The notes under the pieces are model-generated. The model was not told where the DNA came from, ran no database searches, and saw only the letters and a program-made list of their open reading frames with translations. A stretch of 34,318 nt of DNA from a virus. Each line of letters starts with the position of its first letter. Position 1 is the stretch's first letter. Below are positions 2 to 5,897 of this stretch, piece by piece. Location of the stretch: positions 1 to 34,318 of IMG/VR virus record IMGVR_UViG_3300036985_003981, one strand, 5' to 3'. Both the position numbers and the translations under genes were made by a program.

Positions 2-2863
2 CCCCAACCGCCGGACCCGGCGACCGCCCCGGACCCGGCCGCTGAACCGGACCGTGAGACGTTGAAAATCGTCGCGGCCGCCACCGGCCTGACTGTCGCC
101 GAAATCCGTGTGAACTTGAGTCTGGTGGACGCAACCCCGCCGGCCGCTGATCTGGCGAACACGGTGCGGGTGAATGCGTCGTACACCCCGGCGACCCTGG
201 CTGCGCAGCTGACGTCGACGTTGAAAAACTCTGCTAGTGCGGAGTTGCGGGCGGTGGCCGCCGAAGCGTTGGCCGCGGATTCGCCGCTGCTGCGGGACTA
301 CGCGCTGGCCCAGTCCTACGACGCCGCCGCCCTGCAAAACCATGCAGCGCTCACCGCCGCGAACAACAGCGACGAGCCGCTGGAGAAGACCTGGATTTGT
401 ACACTCGATGGGCGCACAAGACCTTCGCATTACCGGGCAGACGGATTGCGCGTGCCTATCGACGGCAAGTTCCCGGTCGGCCGGGCGCAAATGGATTTCC
501 CCGGGGATCGTTCCGCACCGCCGGAGGAATGGAAGAACTGCGTTGTCGGCTCAACCCAGGTCGCTTGGCCTGGGCAGGACGTACTGCAAGCGACGCTGCG
601 GCGCCATAGGGGCACGTTCGTAGATCTCGTCACGGCTGATGGGCGCAAGCTGACCATTACCGCGAACCACAAAGTGCTGACCCCCGCCGGGTACGTCACG
701 GCTGACAGCCTGCGCCCAGGCGACGAGGTGATCGGCAGCAGCAGCTCCGACGTTCCACAGGTAGGCGACGTGCCACCCCGCATCGAAGAGGTTTACCGCG
801 CGTTGAGCGAAGTTCGGGAACCGCAGCGGGTGGTAGCGGGCGCAATGGACTTCCACGGCGACATTACCGAAGGCGACGTAGTCGAGGTTGTAGGGACCGA
901 CCGCGACCTGGGGGGCGAAGTCGACGAACGCAGCGATGTTCTCCAGTGGGCTACGGGCACTCAGAGTGCGCGCTCTGGTTTGGGCGCGGCTGTAGTTGGC
1001 GATCTGGGACTGGGCGTTGGAAGTCATCTCAAAAGGCTGGCGTTGGCTTCGGCGAGCGGCATGAGCGGCCTGCGCGTTGGCGAGCCGTTCGTCGGGGCTC
1101 ATCTTGGCCATTCGGCGGAAATTGGCCTCGGACCTAGTGCGGATGTGGAACCCAGCTTCTTTGAGGTTGCGAACGGCGGTGGGGCGGCTGACTCCGAGGA
1201 CGCTCGCCATCTCTTTCACGCTCATGCCGCTGGCATGAAGCCTGTCGAGTTGTCCGCGGTCAAGATCTATTCGGCGAGTCATGACGTGTACAACCTTTCG
1301 ACAACACAGGAATGGTTCATCGGCAATGGTATCGCGGTGCATAACTGCCGGTGTCGTGTCGGTGTGTTGGCCCCTGATGAGGACATTCCCGACGAGTTGG
1401 ACCGGCACACTGAACGCCTTGATGGCCGGGATTCGGTGGTGGTGAATCGGGATGGTCGCACCCAGGAAGAGGAAATTAGGCGGCGCGCCGCCCAAGGTGA
1501 AACCCGTGCCCGTGATGAACGCGGCCGGACCGCTTCCGGCGAACCCGCACTAGCAGGAGGAGTTATGGATACGTTCCGCACGTTCACCGATTCGGTGATC
1601 GGCCTGGTCGGTCAACCCACCTCGGATGGGCGGATGCTCGCGGCCGGGATTGATCTGACGTTCAGGGCGTTCCCGTTGCCGCTGATGTGGTGCCGGCAAT
1701 CCAAGGAAGGCCACTCCGACTCCTTCACGGTGGGTGTCATTGAGTCGGCCCGGGTTGAGGGTGACCGGGTGTTGGCGTCGGGGTACATGTTGAACAGTGT
1801 TGAGGCGGATGAGGCGGCGGCGCAGCTGGCTCACGGTGTGACGTCCCCATCGGTGGATTTGGCGGCCGCGGAGTGGACGTACACCGATGAGAACGGTGTG
1901 GTGGTTGATGAGCAGGATTTGTGGGATCGGGTTGATGCCGGCCTGCCGGTGTTGACGACGTTCACCGCCGCGGAGCTGATCGGGACAACCCTGGTGGCGA
2001 CGGCGGCGTTCGGGGACACCTCGGTGTCGTTGAACCCGGAGCGTGAGTCCCGTGATGTCGCCTTGGTGGCTGGTGCGGCCGACGATTTCCGGCCCCCGAC
2101 GTATGACCACCGCCTCTTTGATAACCCGAACCTGTCGGGGCCGACGTTGCCGACGATGGGTGAGGACGGCCGGATCTACGGGCACTTGGCGGTGTTCGGT
2201 CAGTGCCATCGCAGCATTCAGACGGAGTGTGTGTTGGTGCCGCGTTCCCCGTCGGGGTACGGGCATTTCCACACGTCGCCGGCGTTGCGTTTGGATGACG
2301 GTTCGCGGCTGCCGGTGGGCCGTCTCACGGTGGGCACAGGACACGCAGACCCACGCCTGGGGGCGTCACCGGCAGCCGCGCACTACGACAACACCGGCTC
2401 CTGCTTTGGCCTTGTCAGGGTTGGTGAGGATGAGCATGGGGTGTGGTTCTCCGGTGTGGCTGCGCCGTGGGCGACTGCGGATCAGATCGCCCAAGGGATC
2501 GCGTCGCCGCTCAGTGGTGATTGGCGTGACTTCGGTCAGGGTTTGGATTTGGTGGCCGCGCTGGCGGTGAACACGCCGGGGTTCGCCGCCCGTGGCCGTG
2601 ATGATGATCAGGGCCGGCCGATTGCGTTGGTGGCGTCGATGGGGCCGTCGCGGGGGAACCTTCGCCGCACGGGTATGTCGGTGGAGGATGTGAAGGCTGC
2701 GGTGCGGGCGGTGTTGTCGGAGCAGGCTGCTGCTGATGCTGCGGCCCGGGTGTCCGCTGCGGAGGCGGTGCGCCGCGATGAGGTGTTGAGTCGGGCGCGT
2801 GACGCGGTGGGTGAGCCGTTGGCGCCGGCGCAGCGGATCGCGCAGATGTTGGGGCGGCGCTAA
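2..2863 (+). CDS. MuF-like minor head protein / capsid maturation protease fusion interrupted by an intein (5' partial)
   Basis: The frame is open to the left edge, so the gene starts outside the window; the TTG at 62 is only the first in-window start-like codon. Before and after the intein the host protein carries a MuF signature: W-I-C-x-L-D-G-R-T-R, a downstream H, DG, F-P-V-G-R, PGD, and then N-C-R-C-R reconstituted across the intein. MuF proteins are minor head proteins linked to the portal. From about 1565 the chain becomes a phage capsid maturation protease. It has a conserved H (codon 1712) in E-G-H-S-D-S-F-T-V-G and a T-S-P-S-V-D-L segment (codons 1841-1861) that are probably the catalytic His and Ser region. 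A charged, Ala-rich C-terminal stretch (about 2680-2860) may be a delta or scaffold-like tail. After splicing, the protein would process the procapsid. The protease part could also be made separately from the ATG at 1565. The family is confident; the exact catalytic residues are inferred. Confidence 0.85.
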   Translation, partial: PQPPDPATAPDPAAEPDRETLKIVAAATGLTVAEIRVNLSLVDATPPAADLANTVRVNASYTPATLAAQLTSTLKNSASAELRAVAAEALAADSPLLRDYALAQSYDAAALQNHAALTAANNSDEPLEKTWICTLDGRTRPSHYRADGLRVPIDGKFPVGRAQMDFPGDRSAPPEEWKNCVVGSTQVAWPGQDVLQATLRRHRGTFVDLVTADGRKLTITANHKVLTPAGYVTADSLRPGDEVIGSSSSDVPQVGDVPPRIEEVYRALSEVREPQRVVAGAMDFHGDITEGDVVEVVGTDRDLGGEVDERSDVLQWATGTQSARSGLGAAVVGDLGLGVGSHLKRLALASASGMSGLRVGEPFVGAHLGHSAEIGLGPSADVEPSFFEVANGGGAADSEDARHLFHAHAAGMKPVELSAVKIYSASHDVYNLSTTQEWFIGNGIAVHNCRCRVGVLAPDEDIPDELDRHTERLDGRDSVVVNRDGRTQEEEIRRRAAQGETRARDERGRTASGEPALAGGVMDTFRTFTDSVIGLVGQPTSDGRMLAAGIDLTFRAFPLPLMWCRQSKEGHSDSFTVGVIESARVEGDRVLASGYMLNSVEADEAAAQLAHGVTSPSVDLAAAEWTYTDENGVVVDEQDLWDRVDAGLPVLTTFTAAELIGTTLVATAAFGDTSVSLNPERESRDVALVAGAADDFRPPTYDHRLFDNPNLSGPTLPTMGEDGRIYGHLAVFGQCHRSIQTECVLVPRSPSGYGHFHTSPALRLDDGSRLPVGRLTVGTGHADPRLGASPAAAHYDNTGSCFGLVRVGEDEHGVWFSGVAAPWATADQIAQGIASPLSGDWRDFGQGLDLVAALAVNTPGFAARGRDDDQGRPIALVASMGPSRGNLRRTGMSVEDVKAAVRAVLSEQAAADAAARVSAAEAVRRDEVLSRARDAVGEPLAPAQRIAQMLGRR
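539..1345 (+). mobile_element. Intein (269 aa) inserted in the MuF NCRC motif, carrying an antisense homing endonuclease gene
   Basis: The first residue is Cys (codon 539) in C-V-V-G-S-T-Q-V, a block A start. Block B follows with T-A-N-H (His codon 668) in K-L-T-I-T-A-N-H-K-V-L-T. The C-terminal blocks F and G read D-V-Y-N-L-S-T-T-Q-E-W-F-I-G-N-G-I-A-V-H-N, ending with the expected His-Asn (1340-1345), and the next extein residue is Cys (1346). Removing the element restores W-K-N/C-R-C-R, the MuF motif, so the borders are precise. Between block B and block F about 180 residues are Gly/Ala-rich and show no LAGLIDADG or HNH motif on the sense strand. The opposite strand of this same stretch encodes a nuclease-like protein. 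Splicing is a family-based inference from intact terminal residues. An alternative reading is a Hint domain without splicing, which the restored extein motif makes unlikely. Confidence 0.92.
551..1282 (-). CDS. Putative antisense homing endonuclease (HTH plus Vsr-like EDxHD nuclease) nested in the intein
   Basis: This 243-residue reading frame runs opposite to the intein and lies entirely within it. The chosen ATG (1282-1280) is the first Met before recognisable protein; the frame is open further upstream but that part is the shadow of intein block F/G. A weak GAAAGG stands 11 nt before the ATG. Residues 8-55 resemble the HTH of phage homing enzymes: M-S-V-K-E-M-A-S-V-L-G-V-S-R-P-T-A-V-R, then L-K-E-A-G and R-T-R-S-E-A-N. 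An M-S-P-D-E-R and H-A-A-R-R linker follows. Residues 111-177 look like the Vsr-type EDxHD fold: E114, V-G-P-Y-N-L-D134, V-A-V-E144-V-H146, H151 and a final G-W-H-V-A-Y-L-W-N strand. The predicted role is a site-specific cut at an intein-less MuF gene to drive intein homing. The family call rests on pattern recognition, and activity is not shown. The stop TGA (553-551) falls 12 nt inside the intein start. Codons on the two strands are exactly aligned. Confidence 0.8.
   Translation of the reverse strand: MTRRIDLDRGQLDRLHASGMSVKEMASVLGVSRPTAVRNLKEAGFHIRTRSEANFRRMAKMSPDERLANAQAAHAARRSQRQPFEMTSNAQSQIANYSRAQTRARTLSARSPLENIAAFVDFAPQVAVGPYNLDYVAFGNVAVEVHCARYHPLRFPNFAQRAVNLFDAGWHVAYLWNVGAAAADHLVAWAQAVSRDVPGGGQHFVVRGNGQLAPISRDEIYERAPMAPQRRLQYVLPRPSDLG
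1555..1567 (+). promoter_or_regulatory. Internal Shine-Dalgarno and ATG before the protease domain
   Basis: AGGAGG at 1555-1560 stands 4 nt before an in-frame ATG at 1565, exactly where the MuF part ends and the protease part begins. This could give a separate protease from an internal start, in addition to the MuF-protease fusion. The spacing is short for an SD, so use is uncertain, but the hexamer is a full consensus. Confidence 0.5.
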
Positions 2864-3043
2864 ATGTGTGGGTGTCGGAAGAACCGGGTGGCGGACGGGA
2901 ATCGGATCCTCGGGTTTGAGGTGACGTTGCCGAACGGCACAGTGATGCCGTCCCTGTTTTTGACAGTGGCCGAAGCCCGTGCCGAGGTGCGCCGTGCCGG
3001 TGGCGGGACGATCCGCCAGAAAACGAAGCCGCAGATAACCTAA
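2864..3043 (+). CDS. Small Cys-containing head-region protein (59 aa)
   Basis: The ATG at 2864 follows directly on the TAA stop of the protease gene (2861-2863). The product begins M-C-G-C-R-K-N and continues with an E-V-T-L-P-N-G-T segment, F-L-T-V-A-E-A-R-A-E-V-R-R-A-G-G-G-T-I-R-Q near the C-terminus, and ends at the TAA at 3041-3043. Small CxC proteins of this layout are common between protease and capsid genes of actinobacterial phages, but their function is not known to me. A CxC pair could bind metal. It has no upstream SD of its own and is probably translated by coupling to the gene before it. Confidence 0.7.
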   Translation: MCGCRKNRVADGNRILGFEVTLPNGTVMPSLFLTVAEARAEVRRAGGGTIRQKTKPQIT

Positions 3044-3250
3044 CTCGTTCGTTCGCTTTATTTTCGGGCAAACGTGCAACTTTGGCGCACTGCGGCCTCC
3101 GCCACACCGTCCCGCCCAAGCCGTTGCACGCCTTGTTTCTAGCGTTCGGGGTGTAGAGAGTCCTGCTGAGCTACGTGCCGGGGATCCGCTCAACGAAAAC
3201 GAATTAAACCGTTGACCGTTTGCTATCCACGCCAAGGAGCGAAACCCGAT
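3044..3250 (+). other. Intergenic leader of the major capsid gene
   Basis: These 207 bases hold no convincing gene. The last part carries AAGGAG (3234-3239) serving the capsid ATG at 3251. A short GTGC/GCAC inverted repeat near 3074-3092 is too weak to call. A TTGACC at about 3213 lacks a good -10 at the right distance. A long untranslated leader before the capsid gene would be typical of strong late expression, but nothing here proves a promoter. Confidence 0.4.
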
Positions 3251-4930
3251 ATGAGTAAGTTTGATCTTCCCGAGCAGCTGCCCACCGTGGCCGCCGAGCT
3301 TGACGAGCTGGCCCAGCAGGCCCGCGCCGAGATCGGCGTGTTCCAGGCCCGCGTCACCGCCGCCGACGACCTCAACCCCGCCGACGTGGAACGGTTGCAA
3401 TACCTCCTCGACGGCCTCGACACCGTGACCGACAAGTCCCGGCAGATCGCCGACGCCGAAAAGTCCACCGCCGAACGCCTCGGCGGACTCCTCAACCGGG
3501 CCACCACCGCCACCACCCCGGCAGCCGTCGAGGTGGCACCGGAAGAAGTCGAGGTCGAAGAAGTTGAGGTCGACGAAGTCGCCGACCCCGAACTGATCAC
3601 CGAAATCGCCGAGCCCGTCATGGCCGCAGCCACCACTAAGCCGGTCACCTTCGCCGGTGCCGGTGTGACCGCCGCCCCCGCCCAAGACACCGGTCCCGGC
3701 TGGGAAATGGTTCCCGGCGCCCCCGGCTACCGCCCCGGCAAGATCGGGTTCAAGGAGATGGGTGCGGCACTTGACGCGGTGCGGGGAACCTCCGCACGGG
3801 TCTCCCCGAACCGCTCCGATGTGCGCCAGTCCGCCGCCCGCGGCCTGGCTCAGCTGTCCCGGCAGATGAACGTCGTGCAGGACTCCCACGAACTCGTCCG
3901 CGAGATCGAGCGGGTCACCACCGAGATCCCCGGCCACGGCAAGGTCACCGCGCAAGCTTTGACCGCAGCCGGTGGTTGGTGCGCACCGTCCGAGCAGATC
4001 TACACCTTCTGCGACGTGCCGGCTGCCACCGACCTGATCTCCCTGCCGGAGATCGCCATCAACCGTGGCGGCATCCGCTGGCCCGTCGAGCCCGACCTCA
4101 GCGGAATCTTCGACAGCTTCGAGTTCTTCTTCACCGAAACCGACCTCGAGGCGACCGACGCCACGGGCAACCCCACCGCGATCAAGCATTGCGTCGAGGT
4201 GCCCTGCCCGGACGAGTTCGAGGAGTTGCGCCTCAACGCGGTCGGTTACTGCGTCGAAGCGGGGATCCTCCAAAAGCAGGGCTGGCCGGAAAGCATCGAG
4301 TGGTTCCTGCGCAGCCTGACGCAGGAGCATTTCCGGGCGTTGTCGCGTCGGACGATCCTCGACATGGTGGCCGGTTCCGACGCCAAGGTCATCACCGCCG
4401 ATCAGGTCAACGCCACCAGCTCGGTCCTCAACGCGATCAGCCTGATGGCGACGAACCTGCGCCTCGACCGCGGCCTGTCACGTAACGCCACCATTGAGGG
4501 TGTTGCCCCGTCCTGGCTGATGGAGGTGTTGCGCGCGGATCTGGCGATGATGGGTTGCGGCGGCGGCGGTTACGCCGTGACCGACGCCCAGATCAACGAC
4601 TGGCTGACCGCCCGCGGTATCGCGCTCCAGTTCGTGTCCGATTGGCAGACCCGCGGTGTGGGTCAGCCGGGCCACCTGGATACCGTGGCGTGGCCGTCGA
4701 CCGTGCAGATCCTGCTGTACCCGGCCGGCACCTGGTTCCGCAGCCTGTCGAACATCATCGAGGTCGGGGTGCTTTACCCGAAGGAGCAGTTGCAGATCAA
4801 CCGCTACACGGAATATTTCACCGAGGATGCGATCGCGGTGGGTAAGCGGTGCAACCGGTCGCTGCTGGTGGACATCCCGATCTGTGTCACGGGTGGCCGC
4901 GGCGATTCCGTCGCCATCACCTGCCCCTAA
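3251..4930 (+). CDS. Major capsid protein with N-terminal scaffold-like domain
   Basis: The predicted product is a 559-residue capsid shell protein with an HK97-type fold expected. Residues 1-75 are helical and charged (E-L-D-E-L-A-Q-Q-A-R-A-E-I, then A-D-V-E-R-L-Q-Y-L-L-D-G-L) and are followed by a very acidic stretch around 95-115. This is the usual scaffolding (delta) segment removed by the protease encoded upstream. The rest holds typical shell features, including G-G-W-C-A-P-S-E, the R-G-G-I-R-W-P segment and a C-terminal L-L-V-D-I strand. The ATG at 3251 was chosen over an upstream start at 3212 because AAGGAG precedes it and M-S-K-F-D begins the helical domain. Context (protease upstream, head and tail genes downstream) supports the call. 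Several Cys residues (for example C-V-E-V-P-C) could form disulphides. Confidence 0.85.
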   Translation: MSKFDLPEQLPTVAAELDELAQQARAEIGVFQARVTAADDLNPADVERLQYLLDGLDTVTDKSRQIADAEKSTAERLGGLLNRATTATTPAAVEVAPEEVEVEEVEVDEVADPELITEIAEPVMAAATTKPVTFAGAGVTAAPAQDTGPGWEMVPGAPGYRPGKIGFKEMGAALDAVRGTSARVSPNRSDVRQSAARGLAQLSRQMNVVQDSHELVREIERVTTEIPGHGKVTAQALTAAGGWCAPSEQIYTFCDVPAATDLISLPEIAINRGGIRWPVEPDLSGIFDSFEFFFTETDLEATDATGNPTAIKHCVEVPCPDEFEELRLNAVGYCVEAGILQKQGWPESIEWFLRSLTQEHFRALSRRTILDMVAGSDAKVITADQVNATSSVLNAISLMATNLRLDRGLSRNATIEGVAPSWLMEVLRADLAMMGCGGGGYAVTDAQINDWLTARGIALQFVSDWQTRGVGQPGHLDTVAWPSTVQILLYPAGTWFRSLSNIIEVGVLYPKEQLQINRYTEYFTEDAIAVGKRCNRSLLVDIPICVTGGRGDSVAITCP

Positions 4931-5015: not shown

Positions 5016-5897
5016 GTGACCACACCATTCGCGAACCTGTATCCGACTGAGCCGTATCAGCCGGTCGATGAGTCGCTGTACGACCCGGCCGGAACACCCC
5101 CGTCTGGGGAATCGTTGTACAACCCCGCCCAGGTGGGTGACCGGTTCTCCGCAGTGTTCGTCCCGCCCGCATCACTCGCACCTAAGGGTGTGTTCGATGC
5201 GGTGACGTGGATTCAGAACGGCACCACCCCGTTGCGGTTCCTCGACGGGATGAGCATTCGGCAGTCGAATGTCGGGTTGGATTCGCAGGTCGGTGTGTGG
5301 GGTTCGGACTGGTGTGATGACCTCGACACCGAATCGAAGGTCAAGGAGCGCCCTGACGCGGTCCTCACCGACGTCGCCCCGATCACGGTTTACGCCTACG
5401 ACTCCAACCAGTGCGGGGATCTGACCCAGGGATCAAGGGATGAGGTTCGCGCTCGCGCCCAGCAGGCAATGCTGTTGGGTGAACAGACCGCCGTCGAGCG
5501 GTCGCTGGCGGAACGATTCAAAGCCGAGGCACCCAACGCCGGCACCGCCGCCACGGTTATTGAGGCGGTGTCGATCCTCGAGACCGCTCTCGCGAAGGCC
5601 GGGGTCACCGGCTACATCCACGCATCCCCGAAGTGGGCGGCCTACCTGGCTGATGGGGCGCGGCTGTCCAACGGCGGCACCTCCCCGATGGGGCACCGCT
5701 GGGTGTTCGGCAACGGGTACACCGACATATTGGGCGACACCCTGGTTGCGACGACCGACCTGTTCGGGTGGCGCGGCCCTTTGGCGGTCCGAGACACCAT
5801 CCAATACGACCAAAACCGATACGTCGTCGTTGTCGAACGGTCGCTGCTCATCGCCTACGAGGCCGCAGTCGCCGCGGTCACCGTCACCCCCGCATAA
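5016..5897 (+). CDS. Capsid-associated protein, possibly a second HK97-like head protein
   Basis: The 293-residue product starts at GTG 5016, preceded by AAAGGAG about 6 nt upstream. It has a Pro/Tyr-rich N-terminus with a repeated S-L-Y-D-P / S-L-Y-N-P motif. A helical middle follows (A-R-A-Q-Q-A-M-L-L-G-E-Q-T-A-V-E-R). The C-terminal half contains Y-I-H-A-S-P-K-W-A-A-Y-L-A, G-H-R-W-V-F-G-N-G-Y and a closing N-R-Y-V-V-V-V-E-R-S-L-L-I-A-Y strand, features I associate with capsid-like head proteins. Its position right after the major capsid gene fits a decoration, vertex or second shell subunit. The exact role is not established from sequence. Confidence 0.55.
   Translation: MTTPFANLYPTEPYQPVDESLYDPAGTPPSGESLYNPAQVGDRFSAVFVPPASLAPKGVFDAVTWIQNGTTPLRFLDGMSIRQSNVGLDSQVGVWGSDWCDDLDTESKVKERPDAVLTDVAPITVYAYDSNQCGDLTQGSRDEVRARAQQAMLLGEQTAVERSLAERFKAEAPNAGTAATVIEAVSILETALAKAGVTGYIHASPKWAAYLADGARLSNGGTSPMGHRWVFGNGYTDILGDTLVATTDLFGWRGPLAVRDTIQYDQNRYVVVVERSLLIAYEAAVAAVTVTPA

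Follow-up and report, generated by a model that had tools for sequence, protein, structure and literature searches.

Intein endonucleases have been described as fusions with their intein in one polypeptide (PMC3943268). In the classical inteins (PI-SceI, PI-MtuI, VMA; PMC3943268, PMC8966425), the nuclease is an in-frame domain, and inteins with such nested endonucleases display presence/absence alleles at one site and decayed nuclease copies. A homing gene on the strand opposite a spliced element is known from nuclear group I introns, which carry antisense homing endonuclease genes such as I-DsqI in Didymium (PMC9548176). Here, we analyze a stretch of 34,318 bases of viral DNA (IMG/VR record IMGVR_UViG_3300036985_003981; hereafter the window), the 5' end of which falls within a MuF head gene that is interrupted by an intein. 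We consider it highly probable, at roughly 85%, that this is a mobile intein whose homing endonuclease has a gene of its own, encoded by the complementary strand of the intein DNA. The computational evidence consists of coding on both strands, selection on the antisense frame, the fold class of the nuclease, conserved start signals and the distribution of alleles.

The locus has in common with the classical inteins blocks A, B, F and G, a nuclease coding sequence between blocks B and F, and the allele and decay patterns described above, but its nuclease, of the Vsr-like class, has a gene to itself, encoded by the complementary strand. With I-DsqI-type genes it shares a homing gene that lies opposite the spliced element, inside its borders, and travels along with it. 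The genes of nuclear group I introns, however, encode His-Cys box enzymes in eukaryotic ribosomal DNA and sit within a peripheral segment of the ribozyme (PMC9548176), and the other strand of those introns is a ribozyme, whereas here the same bases encode proteins on both strands. Inteins have also been described in capsid or head genes of Salmonella and E. coli phages (PMC8425127, PMC11162368; Snoke annotation), and those of KMB36, UPWr_S2-S5 and Snoke belong to the two-strand family characterized here; the passages on capsid inteins found in PMC8425127 and PMC11162368 make no mention of an antisense nuclease. Mobile inteins as such are known. As for the gene arrangement, in line with the initial annotation, which knew of no described system of this sort, we found no description of an antisense homing gene in an intein in the open-access literature searched. 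The features of the locus, in window coordinates, are as follows.

2 to 538, + strand: N-extein, a 5'-truncated MuF-type head morphogenesis protein (Phage_Mu_F, E = 7e-4; PHROG head morphogenesis families)
539 to 1345, + strand: intein of 269 amino acids, from Cys1 to His-Asn, with Cys+1 at 1346 (Intein_splicing; the model matches solved inteins)
653 to 682, + strand: intein block B, TITANHKVLT (translation; T41, N43 and H44 conserved)
848 to 862, + strand: conserved sense motif DFHGD, facing the antisense nuclease core with F105 opposite E144 (derived from translations and conservation)
902 to 1186, + strand: sense linker, intein residues 122-216, predicted to be disordered, beneath the antisense gene (predicted local distance difference test, pLDDT, about 30)
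1286 to 1345, + strand: intein blocks F and G, VYNLSTTQEWFIGNGIAVHN (VYNL...IAVHN; translation and conservation)
1346 to 2863, + strand: C-extein, comprising the remainder of MuF and, fused to it, a long C-terminal part with matches to portal/head-protein PHROGs (phrog_859, E = 1.9e-248)
551 to 1282, - strand: antisense homing-endonuclease-like gene of 243 amino acids, ATG at 1282-1280, TGA at 553-551 (homology, fold, selection, recoding)
1157 to 1261, - strand: helix-turn-helix (HTH) of the antisense protein, residues 8-42 (HTH_38; model helices 9-17, 22-29 and 33-42)
755 to 949, - strand: Vsr-like nuclease core, residues 112-176, with E114, D134 and E144 invariant and R161 in 75/77 (profile, fold, alignment)
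1294 to 1298, - strand: Shine-Dalgarno-like AAAGG, 11 bases before the ATG (sequence compared with the family consensus, (G)GAGG 8 bases before the ATG)

On the sense strand, the intein extends from its Cys1 codon at 539-541 to a His-Asn end at 1345, the next residue being Cys, and its translation holds the Cys1 nucleophile, block B TITANH (T-x-x-H), the C-terminal HN and Cys+1. Its match to Intein_splicing (E = 9.4e-7) lies under the Pfam gathering cut-off, and the same domain matches 23 of 24 aligned inteins, at best with 1.5e-11. In the predicted structure of the sense protein, the two ends are confident and form an intein (HINT) fold, with a best match to solved inteins of E = 1.9e-4 when the end segments were used as the query. 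The sense frame of the window intein contains no recognized endonuclease domain. These results confirm that a complete Cys1...His-Asn/Cys+1 intein, predicted to splice, interrupts the MuF head protein, and they bear out the initial annotation of 539-1345 as a full set of splicing motifs that lacks an endonuclease on the sense strand. The relatives agree in this respect, as a search seeded with the sense intein found an antisense nuclease in 80 of the 80 top loci and a sense-strand nuclease in none, a sample that favours the two-strand family because the loci were ranked by whole-intein similarity. An in-frame endonuclease is accordingly not what we find here, given the lack of a sense nuclease family, the 0/80 sense-strand matches and the disordered sense linker.

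The antisense open reading frame (ORF; 1282-551) lies wholly within the intein borders and is codon-aligned with the intein frame, a phase that lets conservation of the sense protein leak into the antisense frame. This phase speaks for a shadow ORF, one that is open and similar among relatives merely through codon usage and conservation of the sense intein: synonymous recodings score 37 bits on average, and the antisense motif YRVIRG, opposite block B, is in part such leakage. However, when synonymous sense codons were redrawn with the sense protein fixed, the antisense frame was open in 37 of 2000 trials, and the recoded antisense sequences scored 37 +/- 11 bits (maximum 79), compared to 200.8 bits for the real one, against a profile built without the window. 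Moreover, extein codon usage predicts 843 antisense stops across 127 loci and none is present, a count that omitted loci with split nuclease ORFs and is partly conditioned for that reason.

The substitution pattern points the same way. In 11 pairs, differences at sense codon positions 1/2/3 numbered 623/176/394 in the overlap and 433/313/962 in the exteins of the same genes, and the ratio of position-1 to position-3 differences switches at the gene borders, from 0.2-0.4 in the flanking splicing blocks to up to 2.9 within the overlap. Identity in the overlap was 0.82 for the antisense and 0.73 for the sense protein, with the antisense better conserved in 10 of the 11 pairs. Changes per opportunity in the overlap were 0.386 where both frames stay silent, 0.077 for sense-silent/antisense-changing, 0.214 for sense-changing/antisense-silent and 0.021 where both change; the corresponding extein rates, in the same order, were 0.245, 0.326, 0.026 and 0.029. 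These class-wise rates indicate that both strands are constrained, the antisense more so, and support selection on both frames of the overlap, which the initial annotation had put forward as a check, with the stronger selection on the antisense frame. In addition, the antisense protein folds at a pLDDT of 90, while the sense linker is disordered. On the substitution pattern and the recoding control we reject the shadow ORF, to which we attach practically no probability.

The predicted product of the antisense gene combines two parts. HTH_38 matches the window protein with E = 3e-4, and HTH matches are strong in many family members (best HTH_7, 2e-13). Taken alone, the window protein has a weak nuclease match (MTES_1575, E = 0.06), and a PDB search with the single sequence was uninformative. 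At the family level, REase_MTES_1575 is matched with E<1e-3 by 54 of 77 members (3e-9 for the best of them), and in the PDB the family profile matches 3hrl, an endonuclease-like protein (2.5e-5), as well as 3r3p, which is the I-Bth0305I catalytic domain (2.9e-5). An AlphaFold model computed with 76 relatives aligned (mean pLDDT 90.1, predicted template modelling score 0.69) shows, in order, the HTH, a helical linker and an alpha/beta nuclease core, for which VIA-align ranks 3r3p (Z 7.3; 3.4 A over 85 residues) and E. coli Vsr, 1vsr (Z 7.1; 2.7 A over 96 residues), at the top. Z values of 7.1-7.3 are moderate, and sequence profile and fold concur. A plain Foldseek search of the model against the PDB gave weak matches, for which the two-domain shape is perhaps responsible. 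In the 77-member alignment, E114, Y131, N132, D134 and E144 are invariant (77/77), R161 is present in 75 and H151 in 65.

Together, these sequence and model data support a protein made up of an HTH and a nuclease core of the Vsr-like class. The gene thus shares with I-Bth0305I and other Vsr-like (EDxHD) homing endonucleases the nuclease core and a separate DNA-binding region, but I-Bth0305I is, by its PDB name, a mobile-intron protein, whereas the gene described here lies antisense within an intein, and no residue of its product could be assigned to the last D of EDxHD. The initial annotation of 1282-551 as a 243-residue protein with an HTH, starting and ending inside the intein, holds with the ATG assigned from the family; of the proposed Vsr-like EDxHD core, the Vsr-like fold and profile stand, and the exact EDxHD motif is recovered in part, as E, D and mostly H.

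The strong HTH matches, and a catalytic set in which the textbook EDxHD is recognized only in part, would also suit a regulator that binds DNA and whose nuclease-like domain is inactive. That reading has to contend with the invariance of E114, D134 and E144 and the presence of H151 in 65 of 77 members, with the nesting of the nuclease gene in an intein in every case (217/217), and with Rhodococcus phage REQ3 (L016), in which the antisense protein lacks the HTH and keeps the nuclease core, which marks the core as the constant part; we regard it as very improbable. The DFHGD motif of the sense strand is best read as a reflection of the opposite nuclease core, and may have a sense role as well. 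Among viral predicted structures, the only strong fold match is BFVD entry A0A3G3BXE8 (297 amino acids, E = 5.5e-11). A defence-system identity was rejected, PADLOC giving no match for the window protein and one weak match for a Chloroflexota relative.

The intein and the nuclease share bases at the nuclease start. Reverse-complemented, the codons of block F (HVYNLQ/E) read (G)GAGG, 8 bases and ATG in most members. The block F Leu codon is CTC in 88% of 92 members vs 24% in exteins (p=4e-36), and the His codon is CAT in 86% vs 34% (p=2e-20), related members being counted as independent in both comparisons; these preferences form the Shine-Dalgarno sequence and the ATG on the antisense strand. 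In the window, the stop-free antisense frame continues upstream to 1495, and a longer ORF with a TTG start exists, so that we assign the start at 1282 from family conservation. Further upstream of the antisense gene, a minus-strand terminator-like hairpin at 1476-1495 is no commoner than in shuffled sequences.

The arrangement is widespread. A tblastn search with the antisense protein returned 125 phage records, 105 of them matched over at least 80% of its length (best identity 43%), from phages of Gordonia, Salmonella, E. coli, Klebsiella, Pseudomonas, Edwardsiella, Vibrio, Aggregatibacter and others, as well as a Chloroflexota plasmid, and in all 20 loci read closely the nuclease ORF is antisense to a MuF/head gene. 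Scans of IMG/VR and GTDB genomes added about 190 loci, among them some from records with the labels Firmicutes, Gammaproteobacteria, Peregrinibacteria, Salinibacterium and Opitutae; a scan of viral_contigs with the single sequence P0001 yielded no loci, and a 19-member alignment was too diverse for the pattern search, for which subgroup alignments were used instead. All 217 nuclease ORFs, from 211 redundant loci with 144 distinct intein/flank combinations, face an open codon-aligned frame (mean 251 codons) that matches an intein profile; in the two remaining phases, the mean number of stops is 8 and 16. The nuclease stop falls within the intein in 135 of 141 relatives, usually about 20 codons or fewer from Cys1.

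Nearly all relatives keep the antisense frame open, a point that the initial annotation had proposed to check, and the rare stops coincide with an intact sense frame. Three loci carry one in-frame antisense stop each beside an intact sense intein frame (L083, ~3005-3007; L191, ~884-886; L192, ~2852-2854), likely a sign of nuclease decay as expected after fixation; in a fourth, L156, a frameshift disrupts both frames. We consider it highly probable that these loci form a distinct class of mobile intein, in which one strand codes for the splicing protein, the other for a free homing nuclease, and intein motif codons double as the nuclease start; the class would occur in phages or prophages from five or more bacterial phyla and would not be confined to a single host gene.

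Several members depart from the common pattern. The inteins of REQ3, L071 and L211 seemingly start without Cys1 (HPN then Ala). Family inteins in L060, L041 and L212 lie in genes not recognizable as MuF, the C-extein of L212 having a weak match to glycosyltransferase family 25 (E = 0.001). The nuclease profile matches L267 a second time (E = 2.2e-11), with the HTH alone, at the edge of the locus (- strand, 5471-5848) and about 2 kilobases from the intein. Among the annotated regions viewed, antisense-strand hypothetical proteins are annotated only in vB_StyS-sam (L294, 1030-1431, +) and Salmonella phage PK1 (L295, 744-1553, +), and that of PK1 sits in the nuclease frame.

With regard to mobility, three alleles occur at one MuF junction in Gordonia phages, where Fitzgerald is empty, Sedona has an intein of 825 base pairs and Vivi2/Fosterous have an unrelated one of 948 base pairs that cannot be aligned to it in DNA sequence, with exteins 91-97% identical around the junction. 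Presence, absence and replacement at one site are as expected of homing. At the junction codons (L213, L002, L003), the empty allele reads GTCATAAAT and both intein alleles read GTGATCAAC, with silent differences just upstream that could reflect co-conversion. In Escherichia phage vB-Eco-KMB36 (L018; MuF gene 1643-3613), a family intein occupies another, upstream MuF Cys, and one contig (L025/L026, ~2420-4153) has a single MuF gene with two family inteins (nuclease-strand positions 26-3202 and 3398-4069), both of which carry a nuclease ORF in antisense. Intein-less MuF genes are common in phages, including within intein-bearing phage genera. Since cutting would equally harm an intein-less competitor, these empty alleles would also suit a nuclease that chiefly excludes competing phages by cutting their MuF in co-infection, with the spread of the intein as a by-product. 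Sequence alone cannot separate exclusion from homing, but decayed antisense genes beside intact inteins fit the homing cycle and the window protein has no PADLOC defence match; as the chief function we find exclusion improbable, and as an additional role it is compatible with homing.

Under the reading that we prefer, a mobile intein with a complementary-strand homing gene, the head gene would be translated together with the intein on the sense strand, and the intein would then splice itself out, the stretch beneath the nuclease gene being tolerated as a largely unstructured loop that joins the two halves of the splicing domain. On the antisense strand, ribosomes would initiate where block F, read in reverse complement, supplies a Shine-Dalgarno/ATG, and would produce a free HTH-nuclease. 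In co-infection this nuclease would be expected to cut, at the insertion junction, those copies of the host gene that lack the intein, so that repair off the intein-bearing copy would copy intein and nuclease as a single unit. Several points weigh against this reading. The window ATG lies one codon further on than in the family, and its AAAGG is weaker and 11 bases away; a simple sigma-70 scan, itself a weak test, found no promoter-like site for the antisense gene above shuffled sequences; and of the EDxHD set the family has E, D and mostly H, with an extra invariant E144 and no identified second D. The allele patterns, in turn, show mobility or recombination and not the nuclease as its driver; antisense transcription, cutting at the MuF junction and homing itself are inferred.

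With splicing and cutting divided between the strands, each can be expressed independently, and because the same bases are shared the two genes cannot drift apart. In this family, two functional proteins overlap in antisense over a long stretch, the sampling is large, diverse and good, and selection is measurable in both frames. The family adds many unannotated nucleases to phages, including well-known phages of Salmonella, E. coli and Gordonia, and provides natural pairs of intein-bearing and empty phages suited to tests of homing.

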